Positions 50,789 to 58,720 of a DNA stretch of 64,000 nucleotides are shown piece by piece. The stretch lies in assembly GCF_038237375.1 (NCBI RefSeq), contig NZ_CP151273.1, forward strand, positions 1,116,001 to 1,180,000, given 5' to 3'. The notes beneath the pieces are model-generated. The model made no database searches and was not told the origin of the DNA. It saw only the letters and a program-made list of their open reading frames with translations. Both the position numbers and the translations under genes were made by a program. Each line of letters starts with the position of its first letter. Position 1 is the stretch's first letter. The stretch comes from Alcaligenes sp. SDU_A2 (GTDB lineage: Bacteria > Pseudomonadota > Gammaproteobacteria > Burkholderiales > Burkholderiaceae_B).

Positions 50789-51451
50789 TTAAGGCAGTAG
50801 CTTGTGCTTACGTGGGGAAACGACAGCAGTAACAGGGTGCATGCTGATGATGTCCGTCGCTTGCAATGTCAGGCGCTCCTGGCCGTTGATGGATTGCAAA
50901 TGGATCTCGGCGGGGGTCTTGAACAAAAACTCTTTGACCATTTTTTTATCGTTCTTTAGGTGAACGGCGACGTACTCACCGCCCATCGGAACGTGATTGG
51001 GTTCCACGATTACATACCAACCGCTACGAATTGCCGGGAACATGCTGTCACCCTTGACCAGCAATGCGTAAGCGTCCGGATCGTCGGAAAAGTGAGCAAC
51101 ATAGCCATCCGAGCCAGCTTCTGCATCGTTATACCAGCCGTTATCTCCCAGTTTAGCGGTGCTGACAACAGGGACAAGAGAAGACGGAGGAGCGTGTCCG
51201 ATTTCCTGTAGATCGCTGCCTTCGTCATTACGAAACAAGTATGCCCTTCGTGCTTGGTCGTTCAGGAAGGCCTCTACGGGGACACCGTAGACGCGGGCAA
51301 TCTTTTCCAGCGTGCTCAGCCTAGGCTCTTTTGATGTGCCGGTGACAAAACGGAAAATCGTCGACTGCGGCACATTGGATTTTCTGGCCAGTGAGTTTGG
51401 GTTGTCCTTGGCCTTGTCCATGAGGTGTTGGAGAAATTCAGAAGATTTCAT
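50789..51451 (-). CDS. CI-like phage repressor with S24 peptidase domain
   Basis: 220 aa. N-terminal HTH (SLARKSNVPQSTIFRFVTGT), C-terminal LexA/CI-type domain with Ser136 in VKGDSMFPAIRSGWYVIVEP and Lys173 in KKMVKEFLF forming the catalytic pair. An Ala-Gly at 112-113 is a possible self-cleavage site, though close to Ser136. It maintains lysogeny and is likely RecA-inducible or antirepressor-sensitive. Divergent from the Cro-like gene across 72 bp. Confidence 0.9.
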   Translation of the reverse strand: MKSSEFLQHLMDKAKDNPNSLARKSNVPQSTIFRFVTGTSKEPRLSTLEKIARVYGVPVEAFLNDQARRAYLFRNDEGSDLQEIGHAPPSSLVPVVSTAKLGDNGWYNDAEAGSDGYVAHFSDDPDAYALLVKGDSMFPAIRSGWYVIVEPNHVPMGGEYVAVHLKNDKKMVKEFLFKTPAEIHLQSINGQERLTLQATDIISMHPVTAVVSPRKHKLLP

Positions 51452-54886: not shown

Positions 54887-55238
54887 GTGGGTGGATGATC
54901 GTCTGGAAGAATGGGCGATGTGGCGCGAGGGCGCGGGTCTCTACCGTTCTATTTCATATGACAGGGAAGTGTCCGGTGACGCTGTTGGGCTGGTGGAGTT
55001 AAGCGCAGAGCAAGAGGCAGGCTGTGTTGAGATCGATATGGCAGTTGCAAAGCTACCCGCTGAACTTAAGCAGGCAGTGTTCGCGTTCTACACCTGGCAG
55101 GGTGGCATGGGAGTGATCACGGAAAAGCTGCGTGTTACACGGGCGACGATACATCGACGCCTGTGCCACGCAGATCTGCGCATTGTGGGATGGTTTGATG
55201 CGCGGTCACAGGTTATTGCAAAAGGAGAAAGGAAATGA
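54873..55238 (+). CDS. Q-like antitermination / sigma-region-4-like protein
   Basis: 121 aa with ribosome site GGGGGGA. The C-terminal half is a region-4-like HTH: LPAELKQAVFAFYTWQGGMG, VITEKLRVTRATIHRRLCHA. Its place before the late region fits a Q-type antiterminator. Last clearly rightward gene before an opposite-strand gene. Confidence 0.65.
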   Translation: MPRIKWVDDRLEEWAMWREGAGLYRSISYDREVSGDAVGLVELSAEQEAGCVEIDMAVAKLPAELKQAVFAFYTWQGGMGVITEKLRVTRATIHRRLCHADLRIVGWFDARSQVIAKGERK

Positions 55239-55264
55239 GTCAGGAAAAGAGCCCCGATACAAAT

Positions 55265-55708
55265 CTACTGCGTATCCTGTTTCGCGGAATGGTAATCGAT
55301 GCCCAAGCCGACGGCTGCGGCATCATAAATCTTACTGTCCGCACACACAAACAGCACAGCAGCGCCGGGAGGCGCTTGCTTCAATACATGGCGAACGCGG
55401 TCTACCGCTTTGGTGATCTGCTGAACCCCAGCGACTATAACGGGTTGCCCAGGGTAGTTGAGCGCGTGGTGGTCCGCCAGGCAGGCAATCACAGCCATAC
55501 CAACGTGGCTGACTTTTACGTCGTCAACCGTTTGCCCGTTTACCTGGCCAACGGTGATGCCAGTTACGAGACTTTTTTCTTTTACGAGGGTATCGAAAAC
55601 AAAGAGCTGGGCCTTTTGGGCAGTGAAAGCGCCGGCTTCAGCCATGATCTGTCCGATTCGTTCCTCGGTGGCAGGCACAGGCTGAACGAATGTGCTGATA
55701 ACGTTCAT
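55265..55708 (-). CDS. Opposite-strand prophage gene, unknown function
   Basis: 147 aa from ATG 55708 (GGA 8 nt upstream; TTG 55723 alternative). Composition is convincingly protein-like: QPVPATEERIGQIMAEAGAF, VGQVNGQTVDDVKVSHVGMA, CLADHHALNYPGQPVIVAGV, VLKQAPPGAAVLFVCADSKI. An opposing open frame (55235-55726, plus) has a good ribosome site and an ATGA overlap with the Q-like gene, but its translation is N/H/S/F-rich like an antisense shadow. I prefer the minus gene, a moron-like insertion in the late control region. Confidence 0.55.
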   Translation of the reverse strand: MNVISTFVQPVPATEERIGQIMAEAGAFTAQKAQLFVFDTLVKEKSLVTGITVGQVNGQTVDDVKVSHVGMAVIACLADHHALNYPGQPVIVAGVQQITKAVDRVRHVLKQAPPGAAVLFVCADSKIYDAAAVGLGIDYHSAKQDTQ

Positions 55709-55812
55709 GAGTTTTCCAAGCAATGAAGTGGCACCCTGGCCACGGAATTAGTTGTCAGCAAGCATAGGCACTGGGAAAGACTATGGCAACTGCTTGTGGT
55801 GCTTGGTTGATC

Positions 55813-55841
55813 TTGTTTTCATGGTTGCCTGGTTCTATACT
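55813..55841 (+). promoter_or_regulatory. Promoter of antirepressor module 1
   Basis: TTGTTT (55813-55818), 17-bp spacer, TATACT (55836-55841). The same boxes and spacing recur 784 bp downstream at 56597-56625. Confidence 0.7.
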
Positions 55842-55899
55842 GCGCCTAATGCCGACACATCGGCAGGCAGGTTTGACAGCCTGGAACGTAACGGCGTGC

Positions 55900-55930
55900 A
55901 GCCGTCTGATAACCGTTATCGCGGCTTTTT
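55900..55930 (+). terminator. Leader terminator-like hairpin of module 1
   Basis: AGCCG (55900-55904) pairs with CGGCT (55922-55926) and is followed by a T-run. It lies between the promoter and the C4-like RNA; its counterpart in module 2 is stronger. Confidence 0.5.
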
Positions 55931-55960
55931 CTTCGTCTGTACGCATCGTGGCATCTCCTA

Positions 55961-56040
55961 TGGGCGGGGCCATGTGGGAGACCTTCGGGTCTGCCGGTTT
56001 CGTTACGCCGGTCTGTCAACCTGCATGTGTCCCGTCCACC
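55961..56040 (+). ncRNA. C4-type antisense RNA, copy 1
   Basis: Structured element resembling the C4 antisense RNA of phages P1/P7/P4. Closing stem TGGGCGGG/CCCGTCCA (55961-55968, 56031-56038), inner CATG/CATG, a hairpin AGACC-TTCG-GGTCT (55979-55992), and a hairpin CCGG-loop-CCGG (55994-56011). The 10-nt loop TTTCGTTACG (55998-56007) pairs fully (8 Watson-Crick, 2 G-U) with CGTAACGGAG (56071-56080), which contains the ribosome site of the next gene. TCTGTCAA (56012-56019) is also complementary to TTGACAGA (56044-56051). It should repress the antirepressor in the lysogen. Confidence 0.78.
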
Positions 56041-56086
56041 CTATTGACAGAGGGTGGCGGCAATCAAGCACGTAACGGAGTTAGCC

Positions 56087-56863
56087 ATGTCTGAAATTCA
56101 AAGTGTTCCCGCGACCGTCGATTTCCACGGTAATCCCCTCACTGTTGTTACAGCCGCTGATGGTCAGCGGCTTGTTGCTATGCGTCCCATTTGTGAAGCG
56201 ATCGGCGTGCAATGGGAAGCACAGCTTAAACGCATAAAGCGCGATCCTGTCTTATCTGAAGCCATGTCCATAATGGACATACCTTCTTTGGGTGGAGAGC
56301 AGTCCACGGTATGTCTCCCCTTGGAGTATCTGAACGGCTGGCTCTTCGGCATCAGTACCAGCCGCGTCAAGCCGGAGATTCGCCAGCGCCTGGAGGATTA
56401 CCAGCGTGAGTGTTATCAGGTACTCAACGCATATTGGAGCGGTGAACAGGACAGCAACCCCCGCGTACCGCAACAGTCAGAGATCCTTGTGGCGCAAGCC
56501 TATGCTCGCGCGGCCGAGGCAGCGGATATCGTATCCCGGCATGTGTTCCAGGCTGTGCTGAATGGTCAGGTTACTTCTAGTAAAACCAAAGTGCCCTTGT
56601 TTTCATGGTTATGCGGTTTTATACTGCGCTTAATGGGTTTGGCGACCCTGAATGAAAAGGCGCACGTACATAGCCGCGCCAATATTGGTTTGCGGCTTTT
56701 TTGTCGTGCATGGCAACGTCTTCCATGGGCGGGGCCGTGTGGGAGACCTTCGGGTCTGCCGGGTTCCTTTTCTCCGGTTCGCCAACCCGCACGTGTCCTG
56801 CCCACCTCATTTGGCGATGTAGTGGCAGGCTTACTCGGAAGAAAAGGAGCTAGCCATGTCTAA
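56087..56863 (+). CDS. Phage antirepressor, P22_AR_N type, with C-terminus replaced
   Basis: 258 aa from 56087 (CGGAG 6 nt upstream). Residues 1-120 are a P22-antirepressor N-terminal-like domain: VDFHGNPLTVVTAADGQRLV, AMRPICEAIGVQWEAQLKRI, LEYLNGWLFGISTSRVKPEI. Then follows the linker NPRVPQQSEILVAQAYARAA, nearly identical to the next antirepressor. From about residue 163 the frame simply reads through the second C4 module (VPLFSWLCGFILRL onward), so the normal C-terminal domain is missing. It overlaps the next gene by 8 bp. Probably a truncated but possibly active DNA- or repressor-binding fragment. Confidence 0.8.
   Translation: MSEIQSVPATVDFHGNPLTVVTAADGQRLVAMRPICEAIGVQWEAQLKRIKRDPVLSEAMSIMDIPSLGGEQSTVCLPLEYLNGWLFGISTSRVKPEIRQRLEDYQRECYQVLNAYWSGEQDSNPRVPQQSEILVAQAYARAAEAADIVSRHVFQAVLNGQVTSSKTKVPLFSWLCGFILRLMGLATLNEKAHVHSRANIGLRLFCRAWQRLPWAGPCGRPSGLPGSFSPVRQPARVLPTSFGDVVAGLLGRKGASHV
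56453..56571 (+). repeat. Duplicated antirepressor linker, copy A
   Basis: 119 bp closely matching 57231-57349; only about eight differences, mostly synonymous. Together with the duplicated C4 modules it marks the ends of a recombination unit of about 780 bp. Confidence 0.9.
56597..56625 (+). promoter_or_regulatory. Promoter of antirepressor module 2
   Basis: TTGTTT (56597-56602), 17-bp spacer, TATACT (56620-56625), identical boxes to module 1. It lies inside the open frame of the first antirepressor. Confidence 0.7.
56672..56702 (+). terminator. Leader terminator of module 2
   Basis: AGCCGC (56672-56677) pairs with GCGGCT (56692-56697) around a CCAATATTGG inner palindrome, followed by T6. 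It lies about 40 nt after the expected transcription start and before the C4-like RNA. Confidence 0.7.
56726..56806 (+). ncRNA. C4-type antisense RNA, copy 2
   Basis: Same fold as copy 1: TGGGCGGG/CCTGCCCA (56726-56733, 56797-56804), inner CGTG/CACG (compensating for CATG/CATG), AGACC-TTCG-GGTCT (56744-56757), CCGG-loop-CCGG (56759-56777). The 11-nt loop GTTCCTTTTCT (56763-56773) pairs along its full length (10 Watson-Crick, 1 G-U) with AGAAAAGGAGC (56840-56850), the ribosome site of the second antirepressor. TCGCCAA (56779-56785) is complementary to TTGGCGA (56811-56817). Loop and target both differ from copy 1 yet remain matched. Confidence 0.8.
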
Positions 56864-57662
56864 ATCTACTCAAGGCGCACTCGCGCCAACCGCAACGTCC
56901 CCTTCTGTTTTTAATTTTGGTGCTCATTCGGTACGCATTGTTATGCGCGATGGCGAGCCTTGGTTTGTTGCTGCTGATGTGTGCAAAGCTCTTGCGATTA
57001 GCAATCCAACTATGGCATTGCGTGCTCTGGATGATGACGAACAAGCCCTCAGTTCAATTGAGGGCTTAAGTAGAGGCAGCGATCAAGGCAATATTATCAG
57101 TGAAGCTGGCATGTATACCTTGATGCTGCGTTGTCGTAACGCCGTGAAGCCAGGAAGCGTACCTCATCGCTTCCGTAAGTGGGTAACATCTGAAGTCTTG
57201 CCGAGCATTCGCACAAAGGGCGGATATGTCAGCAATCCTCGTGTACCGCAACAGTCAGAGATCCTTGTGGCGCAAGCCTATGCTCGCGCGGCAGAGGCAG
57301 CGGATATTGTTTCCCGGCATGTGTTTCAGGCAGTGCTGAATGGTCAGGTCGATCCTTACCAGGGCCGCTGGTTGTTGGAGACGCGCTATGCCGGTCCCAA
57401 GCGTGAGCTGGTGCCATCGATGCGCATGGTTGCCGATGATGCCCTGGTGGTCTCTGTTGAAGAGATGATAGACGCGCTAGAGGATGGGCTACTGGCTCAC
57501 TTTGGCATGGCAGACTTGGCCAGGATGAATACCGTTTGCAGCTCGGCGCTGATGAATCGTGTGCAGTCAGGCTTGCGTGCCCAGGAATTGAAGAACAGAA
57601 TGGCGGCTCGTAAAGTGCCAAAGACTGCGCTGGCGACAGCTGACGTGGGGTCTAAGAACTAA
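56856..57662 (+). CDS. Phage antirepressor, BRO-N type
   Basis: 268 aa with AAAGGAG 6 nt upstream. BRO family N-terminal domain: VFNFGAHSVRIVMRDGEPWF, VAADVCKALAISNPTMALRA, ISEAGMYTLMLRCRNAVKPG, RFRKWVTSEVLPSIRTKGGY. Then the linker shared with the first antirepressor and an intact C-terminal domain (GRWLLETRYAGPKRELVPSM, AQELKNRMAARKVPKTALAT). It would inactivate the CI-like repressor on induction; translation is predicted to be blocked by C4 copy 2. Confidence 0.87.
   Translation: MSKSTQGALAPTATSPSVFNFGAHSVRIVMRDGEPWFVAADVCKALAISNPTMALRALDDDEQALSSIEGLSRGSDQGNIISEAGMYTLMLRCRNAVKPGSVPHRFRKWVTSEVLPSIRTKGGYVSNPRVPQQSEILVAQAYARAAEAADIVSRHVFQAVLNGQVDPYQGRWLLETRYAGPKRELVPSMRMVADDALVVSVEEMIDALEDGLLAHFGMADLARMNTVCSSALMNRVQSGLRAQELKNRMAARKVPKTALATADVGSKN
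57231..57349 (+). repeat. Duplicated antirepressor linker, copy B
   Basis: Partner of 56453-56571. Encodes the same SNPRVPQQSEILVAQAYA to FQAVLNGQV stretch; here it continues into an intact C-terminal domain. Confidence 0.9.
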
Positions 57663-57830
57663 CAGCAAGCTGGCCGCGCCAGCTTTTATTGGGGGTGAGC
57701 CCGGATGGGCAAACTGTTTTGTAAATACTTCGGCGTGAAGGCTATGATGTCGCTGCTGGTTCAGAGATGGGGGAGAGTGTTGTCTGCTCGTAACCCGAAA
57801 AGAGCCACTGCGGATTATGGTGTACGCCGC

Positions 57831-58101
57831 CGTCTGACCTATAGGTTAGGTCAGACGCGACAGGTTAGACGGCTGAAAACCGCATGAATACTCAATCCGT
57901 CTAACCTCCTAACCTTTCTCATGCGCCCGCCCGTGGGCGCGTACGCATACGTGCGCGTAGACGTGATGTATTAATTGAAAACCTATTTAAGTTGATTGTT
58001 GGTTAATTAGGTTAGACGGTTAGACGGAGTTAATAAAATCAATAACTTATTTACGTCCAACCTAGTGGCTAACCTATTTATAAAGTTAGACGGTTAGACA
58101 G
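57831..58101. repeat. GGTTAGACGG iteron-like repeats and CGTCTGACCTA inverted repeat
   Basis: CGTCTGACCTA (57831-57841) and TAGGTCAGACG (57847-57857) form a perfect 11-bp inverted repeat. GGTTAGACGG occurs at 57863-57872, 58010-58019, 58018-58027 and, with single changes, at 58084-58093 and 58092-58101; CCGTCTAACC (inverted) lies at 57897-57906. Adjacent DNA is AT-rich. The layout resembles a replication origin or a multi-site operator. Confidence 0.7.
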
Positions 58102-58218
58102 AGTTTTCATTTTTTAAATTATTTTCCTCCAGCACTCAAAAACAATTTCGGGAGTTATACCGAATAGGTTAATATGTGCTAACTTTCAGCAGTTTTGCGA
58201 CTGCACAAATCATCACTG

Positions 58219-58251
58219 AGCCCGGACGCCTTGCGCTTCTGGGCTTTTTTT
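58219..58251 (+). terminator. Intrinsic terminator before the late genes
   Basis: AGCCCGGA pairs with TCTGGGCT (one G-T) around an 11-nt loop, followed by a T-run. It ends upstream rightward transcription and could be the site where the Q-like protein acts (inference). Confidence 0.8.
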
Positions 58252-58309
58252 ATTGTTCCCTTATGTCTCCGTACTCAGTGCGCGATCCCCATCGCGTCTG
58301 GGCTCAGTG

Positions 58310-58720
58310 ATGGTGCGTGAAGAAATGGCCACAGCTGCTCCTAAACCTTGTCGTCGCGCTGGTTGTTCTGCCCTGGTCTATGGCGGCAATGGATATTGCG
58401 ACCGGCACCAGGCAGATGCAGAGCGGGAATGGGTGAAAGCCCCAGAGCACTCAGGTCGTGGTGGTCGGCAATGGCGGCGGTTGCGCCTGCAGGTGTTGGA
58501 GCGTGATGGGTGGCTTTGCCAATGCGACGACTGCGCTACCCGGCCAGTGCCGCTGGTGGCGCATGAGGTGGACCACATCAGCAACGAACGCGATGCGGAT
58601 GGCGCCCTGGATGACTCGCTGGAGAACCTGCGGTCAATGAACCGCGACTGCCATCGGAAAAAAACCCAGCAGGAGGCGGCCCGAGGTCGGCGGCGCCGCT
58701 GGGTGGGTGGGGTGGGGTAA
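58310..58720 (+). CDS. HNH endonuclease
   Basis: 136 aa from ATG 58310 (ATG 58325 alternative; both ribosome sites weak). N-terminal zinc-knuckle-like CRRAGCSALVYGGNGYCDRH, then the HNH core: LVAHEVDHISNERDADGALD, SLENLRSMNRDCHRKKTQQE. Such HNH proteins sit next to HK97-type terminases and are needed for cos cleavage or packaging. Confidence 0.88.
   Translation: MVREEMATAAPKPCRRAGCSALVYGGNGYCDRHQADAEREWVKAPEHSGRGGRQWRRLRLQVLERDGWLCQCDDCATRPVPLVAHEVDHISNERDADGALDDSLENLRSMNRDCHRKKTQQEAARGRRRRWVGGVG

Follow-up and report, generated by a model that had tools for sequence, protein, structure and literature searches.

Two stacked C4 antisense RNA cassettes, each fitted to its own antirepressor leader, in a prophage of Alcaligenes sp. 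SDU_A2

The window analysed here is a 64,000-nucleotide (nt) stretch of the Alcaligenes sp. SDU_A2 genome (NCBI RefSeq assembly GCF_038237375.1, contig NZ_CP151273.1, positions 1,116,001 to 1,180,000 of the forward strand), and positions are counted from its first letter. Within a prophage, two modules (M1 and M2) follow each other, and each contains a promoter-like sequence, a leader with a terminator-like hairpin, an antisense RNA of the C4 type (C4-1 and C4-2), and an antirepressor gene (gene 1 and gene 2; Table 1). Two loops of each RNA, a' and b', are complementary to a pair of sites upstream of the RNA (b1-a1) and to a second pair downstream (b2-a2). The prophage also has a CI-like repressor gene, presumed to encode the target of the antirepressors, and a gene with a VapE-like domain (Pfam). 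Below, G000 is the genome of the window, and other G and L numbers stand for further genomes and loci.

A sequence-only reading of the window had proposed C4-type RNAs here, and the covariance model bears this out. Both RNAs score above the gathering score of 45 for the Rfam family, both have a' and b' complementary to the ribosome-binding region of the downstream gene, and in both modules the target gene is an antirepressor, as judged from its sequence alone (P22_AR_N and Bro-N domains; PHROG anti-repressor matches). Loop 1, TTTCGTTACG, forms ten base pairs, two of them G-U, with a2 of M1, which contains GGAG and lies 5' of the ATG at 56087; loop 2, GTTCCTTTTCT, forms eleven, one of them G-U, with a2 of M2, 5' of the ATG at 56856. 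These are the places and lengths that the sequence-only reading had given for the pairing with the two Shine-Dalgarno regions. The second pair that it listed in each module, b' with b2, is present without a mismatch, and the compensated change from CATG/CATG to CGTG/CACG that it noticed is located in the C4 outer stem in the Rfam alignments. Folding of the RNAs leaves most of a' and b' without a partner (unpaired 0.79/0.88 and 0.85/0.99, versus 0.17 elsewhere in the RNA). Three things had been overlooked: the upstream b1-a1 pair in each module, a third C4 in the genome, and the lost C-terminal part of gene 1.

Table 1. Features of the two modules and of the associated genes (window coordinates).
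Feature	Position	Strand	Basis and remarks
M1 promoter-like sequence (TTGTTT, 17 nt, TATACT)	55813-55841	+	sequence; weak -35
M1 b1 target TTGACAG	55873-55879	+	7-nt complement to b'
M1 a1 target CGTAACGG	55887-55894	+	8-nt complement to a' loop
M1 terminator-like hairpin and T-run	55900-55930	+	folding, -9.7 kcal/mol; ends at TTTTT 55926-55930
C4-1 antisense RNA (a' 55998-56007, b' 56012-56019)	55956-56043	+	Rfam cmscan RF01695, 65.3 bits
M1 b2 target	56044-56051	+	perfect 8-nt complement to b'
M1 a2 target, over gene 1 Shine-Dalgarno region	56071-56080	+	10-nt complement to a' loop
Gene 1, P22_AR_N antirepressor; original C-part lost, frame continues through C4-2	56087-56863	+	Pfam PF10547, E 8e-35; PHROG anti-repressor; L151 comparison
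120-bp repeat, left copy, flanking M2	56452-56571	+	112/120 identical to right copy
Extra block (promoter-like sequence, leader, C4-2, Bro-N domain)	56572-57227	+	L151 alignment; ~656 bp
M2 promoter-like sequence	56597-56625	+	sequence; same basis as in M1
M2 b1 target TTGGCGA	56639-56645	+	7-nt complement to b'
M2 a1 target GAAAAGG	56654-56660	+	7-nt complement to a' loop
M2 terminator-like hairpin and T-run	56672-56702	+	folding, -13.6 kcal/mol; ends at TTTTTT
C4-2 antisense RNA (a' 56763-56773, b' 56779-56785)	56721-56809	+	Rfam cmscan RF01695, 70.5 bits
M2 b2 target	56811-56817	+	perfect 7-nt complement to b'
M2 a2 target, over gene 2 Shine-Dalgarno region	56840-56850	+	11-nt complement to a' loop
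Gene 2, Bro-N antirepressor carrying the old C-terminal part	56856-57662	+	Pfam PF02498, E 6e-19; PHROG anti-repressor Ant
120-bp repeat, right copy	57230-57349	+	112/120 identical to left copy
S24/HTH (helix-turn-helix) CI-like repressor, same prophage	50789-51451	-	Pfam

The loops of M1 and M2 fit each other's sites poorly, and the specificity is set by a' and b'. Three-by-three matrices of computed duplex energies compared M1, M2, and the third C4; the antisense strings comprised the loops only, and the target windows were taken around the sites that the cognate RNA had matched. In all four matrices (a'/a2, b'/b2, a'/a1, and b'/b1), no non-cognate pair in any row or column is as strong as the cognate one. 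For a'/a2, the cognate duplexes reach -11.3 kcal/mol (M1) and -15.0 kcal/mol (M2) versus -1.9 for the M1 loop on M2 and -3.7 for the M2 loop on M1; the corresponding b'/b2 values are -10.2 and -10.4 versus -4.5 and -0.9. This weak cross pairing agrees with the earlier claim that each RNA fits its own leader. When the whole downstream region is offered, a' keeps its discrimination (-11.3/-5.2 and -6.3/-15.0). The third C4 is separated from M2 only partially (-10.4 for its a' on M2 a2, versus -15.0 for C4-2), because both loops pair with AAAGGAG. Cofolds of whole C4 RNAs with whole flanks did not distinguish cognate from non-cognate partners, nor did duplexes of loops with their stem flanks, and loop-only duplexes and permutations were used instead.

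Since the a2 sites overlap the Shine-Dalgarno region, a part of the pairing (CCUU with AAGG) is generic, as the third C4 on M2 illustrates, and one might ascribe the resemblance between RNAs and complementary sites to chance or to common G+C-rich sequence. For the pairing as a whole, chance is refuted by the covariance-model scores, the permutation tests described below, and dinucleotide shuffles, and its probability is negligible. With a' and b' taken jointly, none of 3000 shuffles was as good downstream in either module or upstream in M2, and 18 of 3000 were as good upstream in M1, where b' taken singly is unremarkable (261/3000). The observation of two C4 RNAs with paired targets is confirmed as correct and well above chance.

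The promoter region is conserved as well: a 40-nt promoter block is 85% identical between M1 and M2. Sites complementary to b' and a', which characterize the c4-a1b1 motif (RF03163), lie upstream of the RNA in both modules; the model itself gives 30.6 bits (E 2e-5) at 55835-55887 in M1, under its gathering score of 46.7, and no match on the M2 leader. A b1-a1 pair followed by a terminator-like hairpin is a layout already known for C4, P4 CI, and IsrK. By analogy with the last, the short terminated b1-a1 leader could work in trans, either titrating C4 or switching on translation of the antirepressor. In Gifsy-1, translation of anrP is activated by IsrK (PMC4825925), and the isrK model (RF01394) matches both leaders below its cut-off (55850-55931, 25.8 bits, E 0.004; 56630-56702, 21.6 bits, E 0.049) and attains its gathering score in L157 and just upstream of the third C4 (L035). 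Far under the gathering score of 50 as the two window scores are, such a role seems possible for these leaders, though on the unlikely side.

C4 loci beyond the window show the same cognate preference on average. A pattern parser returned 70 records from which six false matches were dropped, and merging identical loops left 57 distinct loop pairs from 64 C4 loci; these are a sample, since the model matches L013, L050, L062, and L063 were missed. On average, cognate pairing exceeds non-cognate pairing for a'/downstream (-12.4 versus -7.5 kcal/mol), b'/downstream (-8.8 versus -7.2), and a'/upstream (-11.2 versus -7.0), and no permutation out of 2000 equalled the cognate value at any of the four sites. 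The own target ranks first in 31 of the 57 for a'/downstream, 31 for a'/upstream, 28 for b'/upstream, and 43 when the four sites are summed. The spacing of b1, a1, b2, and a2 is alike in most parsed loci, and 49/57 loci have, between a1 and C4, a hairpin of -5 kcal/mol or lower with a T-run at its end, versus 7/57 after one shuffle each. Blocking a1-b1 raised the mean computed terminator probability from 0.56 to 0.75, and blocking a control segment gave 0.52. Three loci of one genome (L061, L075, and L076, all G515) have the upstream targets and lack a downstream target pair at the usual place; these C4s are possibly free-standing and trans-acting.

The two genes are not equivalent. Gene 1 retains a nearly complete P22_AR_N domain plus the 120-bp shared segment, and its frame crosses C4-2 and ends 8 nt into gene 2, which makes the two modules overlap in cis. 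Residues 122-268 of gene 2 are 85% identical in L085/L151, both from viral contig IMGVR_UViG_2843646283_000001, a sister prophage. Window 56086-56571 aligns to L151 4000-4485 (90.5%) and window 57228-58500 to L151 4364-5638 (85.8%); these alignments are collinear and overlap, and the P22_AR_N part of gene 1 and the C-terminal part of gene 2 form one undivided gene in L151. Judged by this alignment, M2 with its Bro-N domain is an extra block at the junction between the N- and C-domains of one antirepressor, and we infer that it was gained in the window prophage rather than lost in L151. A comparable pair of loci was found elsewhere: in L224, a block of 686 bp that brings a different antisense cassette and N-domain divides the antirepressor of L212 and leaves an upstream frame of 121 amino acids (aa).

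We interpret the locus, with good confidence, as a stack of two self-contained C4 cassettes with cognate silencing, M2 lying within an older P22_AR_N gene and the antirepressor under C4-2 being the likely working switch. Each cassette consists of the promoter-like sequence, the b1-a1 leader with its terminator-like hairpin, the C4 RNA, b2-a2 over the ribosome site, and the N-domain of the antirepressor. Once transcribed and cut from the leader, C4 would use a' and b' to bind the b2-a2 of its own module and thereby keep the antirepressor of that module from being translated, and on the nascent b1-a1 it would favour early termination; through both effects, the prophage would stay silent. M2 and the Bro-N domain would have come between the N- and C-parts of an existing P22_AR_N antirepressor gene, which makes the full-length antirepressor under C4-2 the likely working switch. 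M1, whose RNA parts are intact and whose gene is shortened, may mainly supply an extra trans-acting immunity RNA, and the two cassettes are probably not two equal switches.

Stacks of this kind recur. Same-strand C4 pairs no more than 3 kb apart were counted as arrays, and the counts are lower bounds because only 10-15 candidates were scored per genome; the family, order, and class samples overlap. Arrays occur in at least one (G000) of 54 C4-bearing genomes among 268 in the family sample, at least two (G000 and G398) of 55 among 399 in the order sample, and at least four (G000, G912, G883, and G1017) of 24 among 369 in the class sample. The densest, in G912 (L231:1700-3092, contig 9), packs four C4 modules into 1.4 kb and is followed by a DUF927-domain gene; a' is common to three of them, b' differs in all four with matching b1 and b2 in each, and the frames behind the first two C4s run into the next module. 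In G883, one matched C4 belongs to a Rha gene and another to a P22_AR_N gene; G398 has a Bro-N gene and another recognized from a piece of 53 residues that falls slightly short of the Pfam cut-off. Further arrays were found among the viral and named-genome loci in L157 (three C4s), L291, and L299; the second C4 match of L097 is weak, at 35 bits.

Cognate pairing is at least 3 kcal/mol stronger than cross pairing in 21 of 28 ordered cross pairs from seven arrays, the eighth (L299) being excluded with its second RNA unparsed. Orthogonality is not universal: G1017 shares the b pairing, and the second C4 of L157, with no downstream pair of its own, fits the target of the first module. Divergence of loops and targets beyond the rest of the module is clear in G912 modules 0-1 (b 8/23 versus 211/255 for the rest, p 2e-6) and in G883 (a sites 11/28 versus 199/236, p 7e-7) and non-significant in the window and several other array pairs. 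The third C4 of the genome (G000:C1:1201553-1201644; L001 and L035) lies 29 kb further on, probably in a neighbouring element, because it lies beyond another integrase-like frame and close to frames that resemble HNH, terminase, portal, and capsid genes, all named by eye from their translations; the protein of 86 aa encoded behind it matches nothing in Pfam or PHROG.

These arrays bear on how the two window modules are to be read. The sequence-only reading had concluded that the prophage carries two independent immunity switches; the C4 family and the cognate fit stand, and the independence is left unsettled by the displaced C-part of gene 1 and the overlap of the modules. Fully independent, functional switches would require both antirepressors to act on the repressor, each held by its own C4. 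The intactness of every RNA part in both modules, the nearly complete P22_AR_N domain of gene 1, and the tandem modules with separate antirepressor-type genes in G883 and G398 speak for this, but gene 1 has had its C-part displaced and reads on across C4-2 into gene 2, the upstream gene in L224 is likewise cut to 121 aa by an extra cassette, and in G912 the frames behind the first two C4s extend into the next module; we regard it as unlikely. Alternatively, M1 may be a decaying remnant of a recent insertion with M2 alone of importance, to which we give clearly less than an even chance. Gene 1 is indeed truncated, while M2 and its gene are complete; against decay, C4-1, its four targets, and the terminator-like hairpin are all intact, though recency alone could account for that, and arrays that retain several C4s with matched targets recur.

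Several results weigh against the cassette stack with cognate silencing. With the whole downstream region offered, b' alone does not discriminate (-8.9 for M2 b' on region 1 versus -8.6 for M1 b'), and wider target regions narrow the cognate margin, the summed downstream values of -19.9/-25.2 versus -13.1/-12.6 still being in favour of the cognate. Across the 57 loop pairs, b'/downstream taken singly puts the own target first in just 12. Loop and target sites do not diverge between M1 and M2 significantly more than the remainder of the modules (a 21/33 and b 12/22 versus 151/207 for the rest; p 0.30 and 0.08). The sequence-only reading had placed a promoter and a hairpin in each module; the conserved promoter block and the folded hairpins agree with it, and a consensus promoter and terminator scan of 55700-56900 reported neither promoter-like sequence and neither leader hairpin. 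Attenuation is weak at single loci: blocking a1-b1 raised the terminator probability by more than 0.2 in 18/49 and lowered it in 1/49, the control segment raised it in 4, and in M2 of the window the increase with the control segment equalled that with the a1-b1 sites. Attenuation is accordingly plausible for the C4 family and unproven at the window locus. An exact search for phages with the same loops gave none in viral contigs (M1 and M2) and none in genome contigs (M1).

The sister prophage has another RNA in the C4 slot. At L151:3861-3947, sRNA-Xcc1 (RF02221; 68.3 bits, E 2e-12, gathering score 53) takes the place of C4 in front of an antirepressor 94% identical to gene 1 across 162 residues; the DNA homology with the window begins one base 5' of the start codon, and the RNA is complementary to both flanks. 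Neither the window, searched with our sRNA-Xcc1 model (R2), nor the G000 genome has a hit. The RF02221 search matched 4/268 family genomes, including G004 of the same genus (before a Bro-N gene), and 20/303 class genomes; of the 41 matches, 37 were retrieved as loci, 22 of them above the family cut-off. Together with L151, and minus one short flank and one duplicate, these gave 36 distinct RNAs, in which pairing of the 3' half is on average stronger with the RNA's own flanks than with the flanks of other RNAs (upstream -25.5 versus -18.9; downstream -19.2 versus -15.3; 0/5000 permutations each). The own target ranks first in 17/36 upstream and 6/36 downstream.

Viral-contig loci were picked solely by homology to the two antirepressors of the window (66 and 80 loci, 79 or 80 of the second set evaluable) and scanned with models R1 (C4) and R2, the end of the RNA being required from 20 bases inside to 450 bases upstream of the matched stretch. 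Among the 141 evaluable loci, five with too little upstream sequence being excluded, 93 have sRNA-Xcc1, 17 have C4 (including the weak L109, 27.8 bits), and 31 have neither; after removal of duplicates, the numbers are 73, 16, and 26 of 115. R2 was built from 24 RNAs including that of L151, and the Rfam model confirmed all 15 R2-positive loci submitted to it. In this viral set (99 of 101 R2 hits; 56 distinct with enough flank), flank pairing beats permutations on average (0/3000 upstream and downstream), and the own target ranks first in 13/56 on either side. Upstream of 20 Bro-N loci of named genomes, we found C4 in seven, sRNA-Xcc1 in nine, weak sRNA-Xcc1 in two, and neither in two; several of these contigs are probably the same as viral contigs. 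Two full sRNA-Xcc1 hits occur in seven viral loci, including L122 and L188, the tandem RNAs of L188 being nearly identical, and the second one of L219 is weak and cut off. The two sRNA-Xcc1 cassettes of L212 recur in L224 with their order reversed, and one L224 cassette splits the antirepressor of the other.

Pfam searches on 11 frames downstream of sRNA-Xcc1 gave Bro-N in L252, L253, L254, L255, and L257, SymE in L278, L260, and L279, and no match in L251, L262, and L276; many further frames behind this RNA are short and without assignment. The start-codon rule that picked these frames is a guide only, since for L151 it chose a wrong 51-aa frame that begins 5 bases before the antirepressor start. 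Antirepressors are therefore one putative sRNA-Xcc1 target class of several. Taken together, the position and complementarity of sRNA-Xcc1 suggest that it does the same job as C4, as an antisense regulator of the gene directly behind it. It is the commonest RNA before the sampled antirepressor genes, and the sister prophage gives it a testable function; its standing in for C4 is most likely the result to surprise specialists. In L278, L260, and L279, the RNA lies directly 5' of the SymE-family gene and is complementary to the flank with the SymE ribosome site, and there it is possibly an antisense antitoxin of a C4-like kind.

sRNA-Xcc1 was identified in Xanthomonas with many computed targets (PMC2996969). 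In Xylella Temecula1, five copies within 1.6 kb have been read as vesicle and virulence small RNAs with computed targets (PMC12189769), and in integron cassettes it lies 5' of symE, where the authors suggested a divergent regulatory mechanism (PMC12444791). The spacing of the five copies in Xylella fastidiosa Temecula1 (1313466-1315082; PMC12189769) resembles a stacked cassette array. Among the open-licence papers searched, none that treats sRNA-Xcc1 also covered two of the topics antirepressor, prophage, and C4 antisense RNA, and PMC12444791 alone had sRNA-Xcc1 among the papers listed by a broader search. Its likeness to C4 lies in the slot before the same antirepressor in L151 and in the complementarity to both flanks; it differs in its covariance model, with no clan in the Rfam output where C4 is in CL00128, and in its description as a virulence-linked, vesicle-borne, or integron small RNA (PMC2996969, PMC12189769, PMC12444791).

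Comparison with related prophages suggests exchange and stacking of whole switches. A wider proposal, speculative and rather improbable in full, unites C4 and sRNA-Xcc1 as alternative backbones within a single superfamily of antisense immunity cassettes of the layout given above, which phages would swap at the start codon and stack at the N/C junction of the antirepressor. RNAs still made by upstream cassettes left behind would then serve in trans as a record, or memory, of previous immunity types and repel phages with those leaders. As the exact loop searches found no phage, the memory idea is without a partner phage.

Among known systems, C4 of P1 and P7 is the nearest. It pairs through a' and b' around the target ribosome site, is released by RNase P from a longer transcript (PMC5320573), the processed RNA being about 77 nt long with an RNase P-made 5' end, and blocks ant translation, a 4-nt difference in the a' region separating P1 from P7 (PMC5320573, PMC12197685); the c4 and c4-a1b1 motifs are listed by Weinberg 2010 (PMC2864571). 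The window RNAs share with it the covariance model, the a'/b' loops, the pairing at the antirepressor ribosome site, and the upstream a1-b1. They differ in that two cassettes lie side by side (elsewhere up to four), with differing N-domain families and a block at the N/C junction. P1 has an icd gene, whereas no separate icd-type gene was noticed in the window, where a2 lies over the antirepressor's own ribosome site. P4 CI RNA pairs with seqA and seqC, and its output is termination (PMC4825925); it is cut from a leader, as is predicted for the window RNAs, and likewise has complementary targets on both sides, but P4 controls its own replication genes, whereas the window cassettes each precede an antirepressor. 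In Gifsy-1, IsrK/anrP acts through a terminated leader (PMC4825925). The order IsrK-STnc1160-orf45-anrP has its predicted counterpart here in a short terminated RNA, a processed RNA downstream, and an antirepressor gene, but no orf45-like gene was identified in the window, and the isrK matches are under the Rfam cut-off. Acinetobacter baumannii AB5075 has, in one genome, a 21-member group 1 of C4-like small RNAs with differing a' loops (PMC5320573); its authors favour bacterial targets, and the text consulted makes no mention of matching between an RNA and an adjoining antirepressor (PMC5320573).

C4 RNAs as a kind are thus already known, and the stack around one antirepressor gene is a variant for which no description was found in the literature searched; for orthogonal tandem C4 modules, none was found in titles and starts of abstracts of the open-licence literature. 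The antisense-RNA heteroimmunity described for P1 and P7 concerns single C4 RNAs. Where stacked cassettes have loops and targets that match, they give natural sets of predicted orthogonal RNA switches in one element, and the stack shows how a new specificity can be added.

Just 5' of M1 (55235-55726), long open frames of 163 aa (+) and 152 aa (-) lie on both strands, neither with a Pfam match. A GGTTAGACGG-like repeat and its complement recur several times downstream of gene 2 (57860-58120), and these are present in L151 too.

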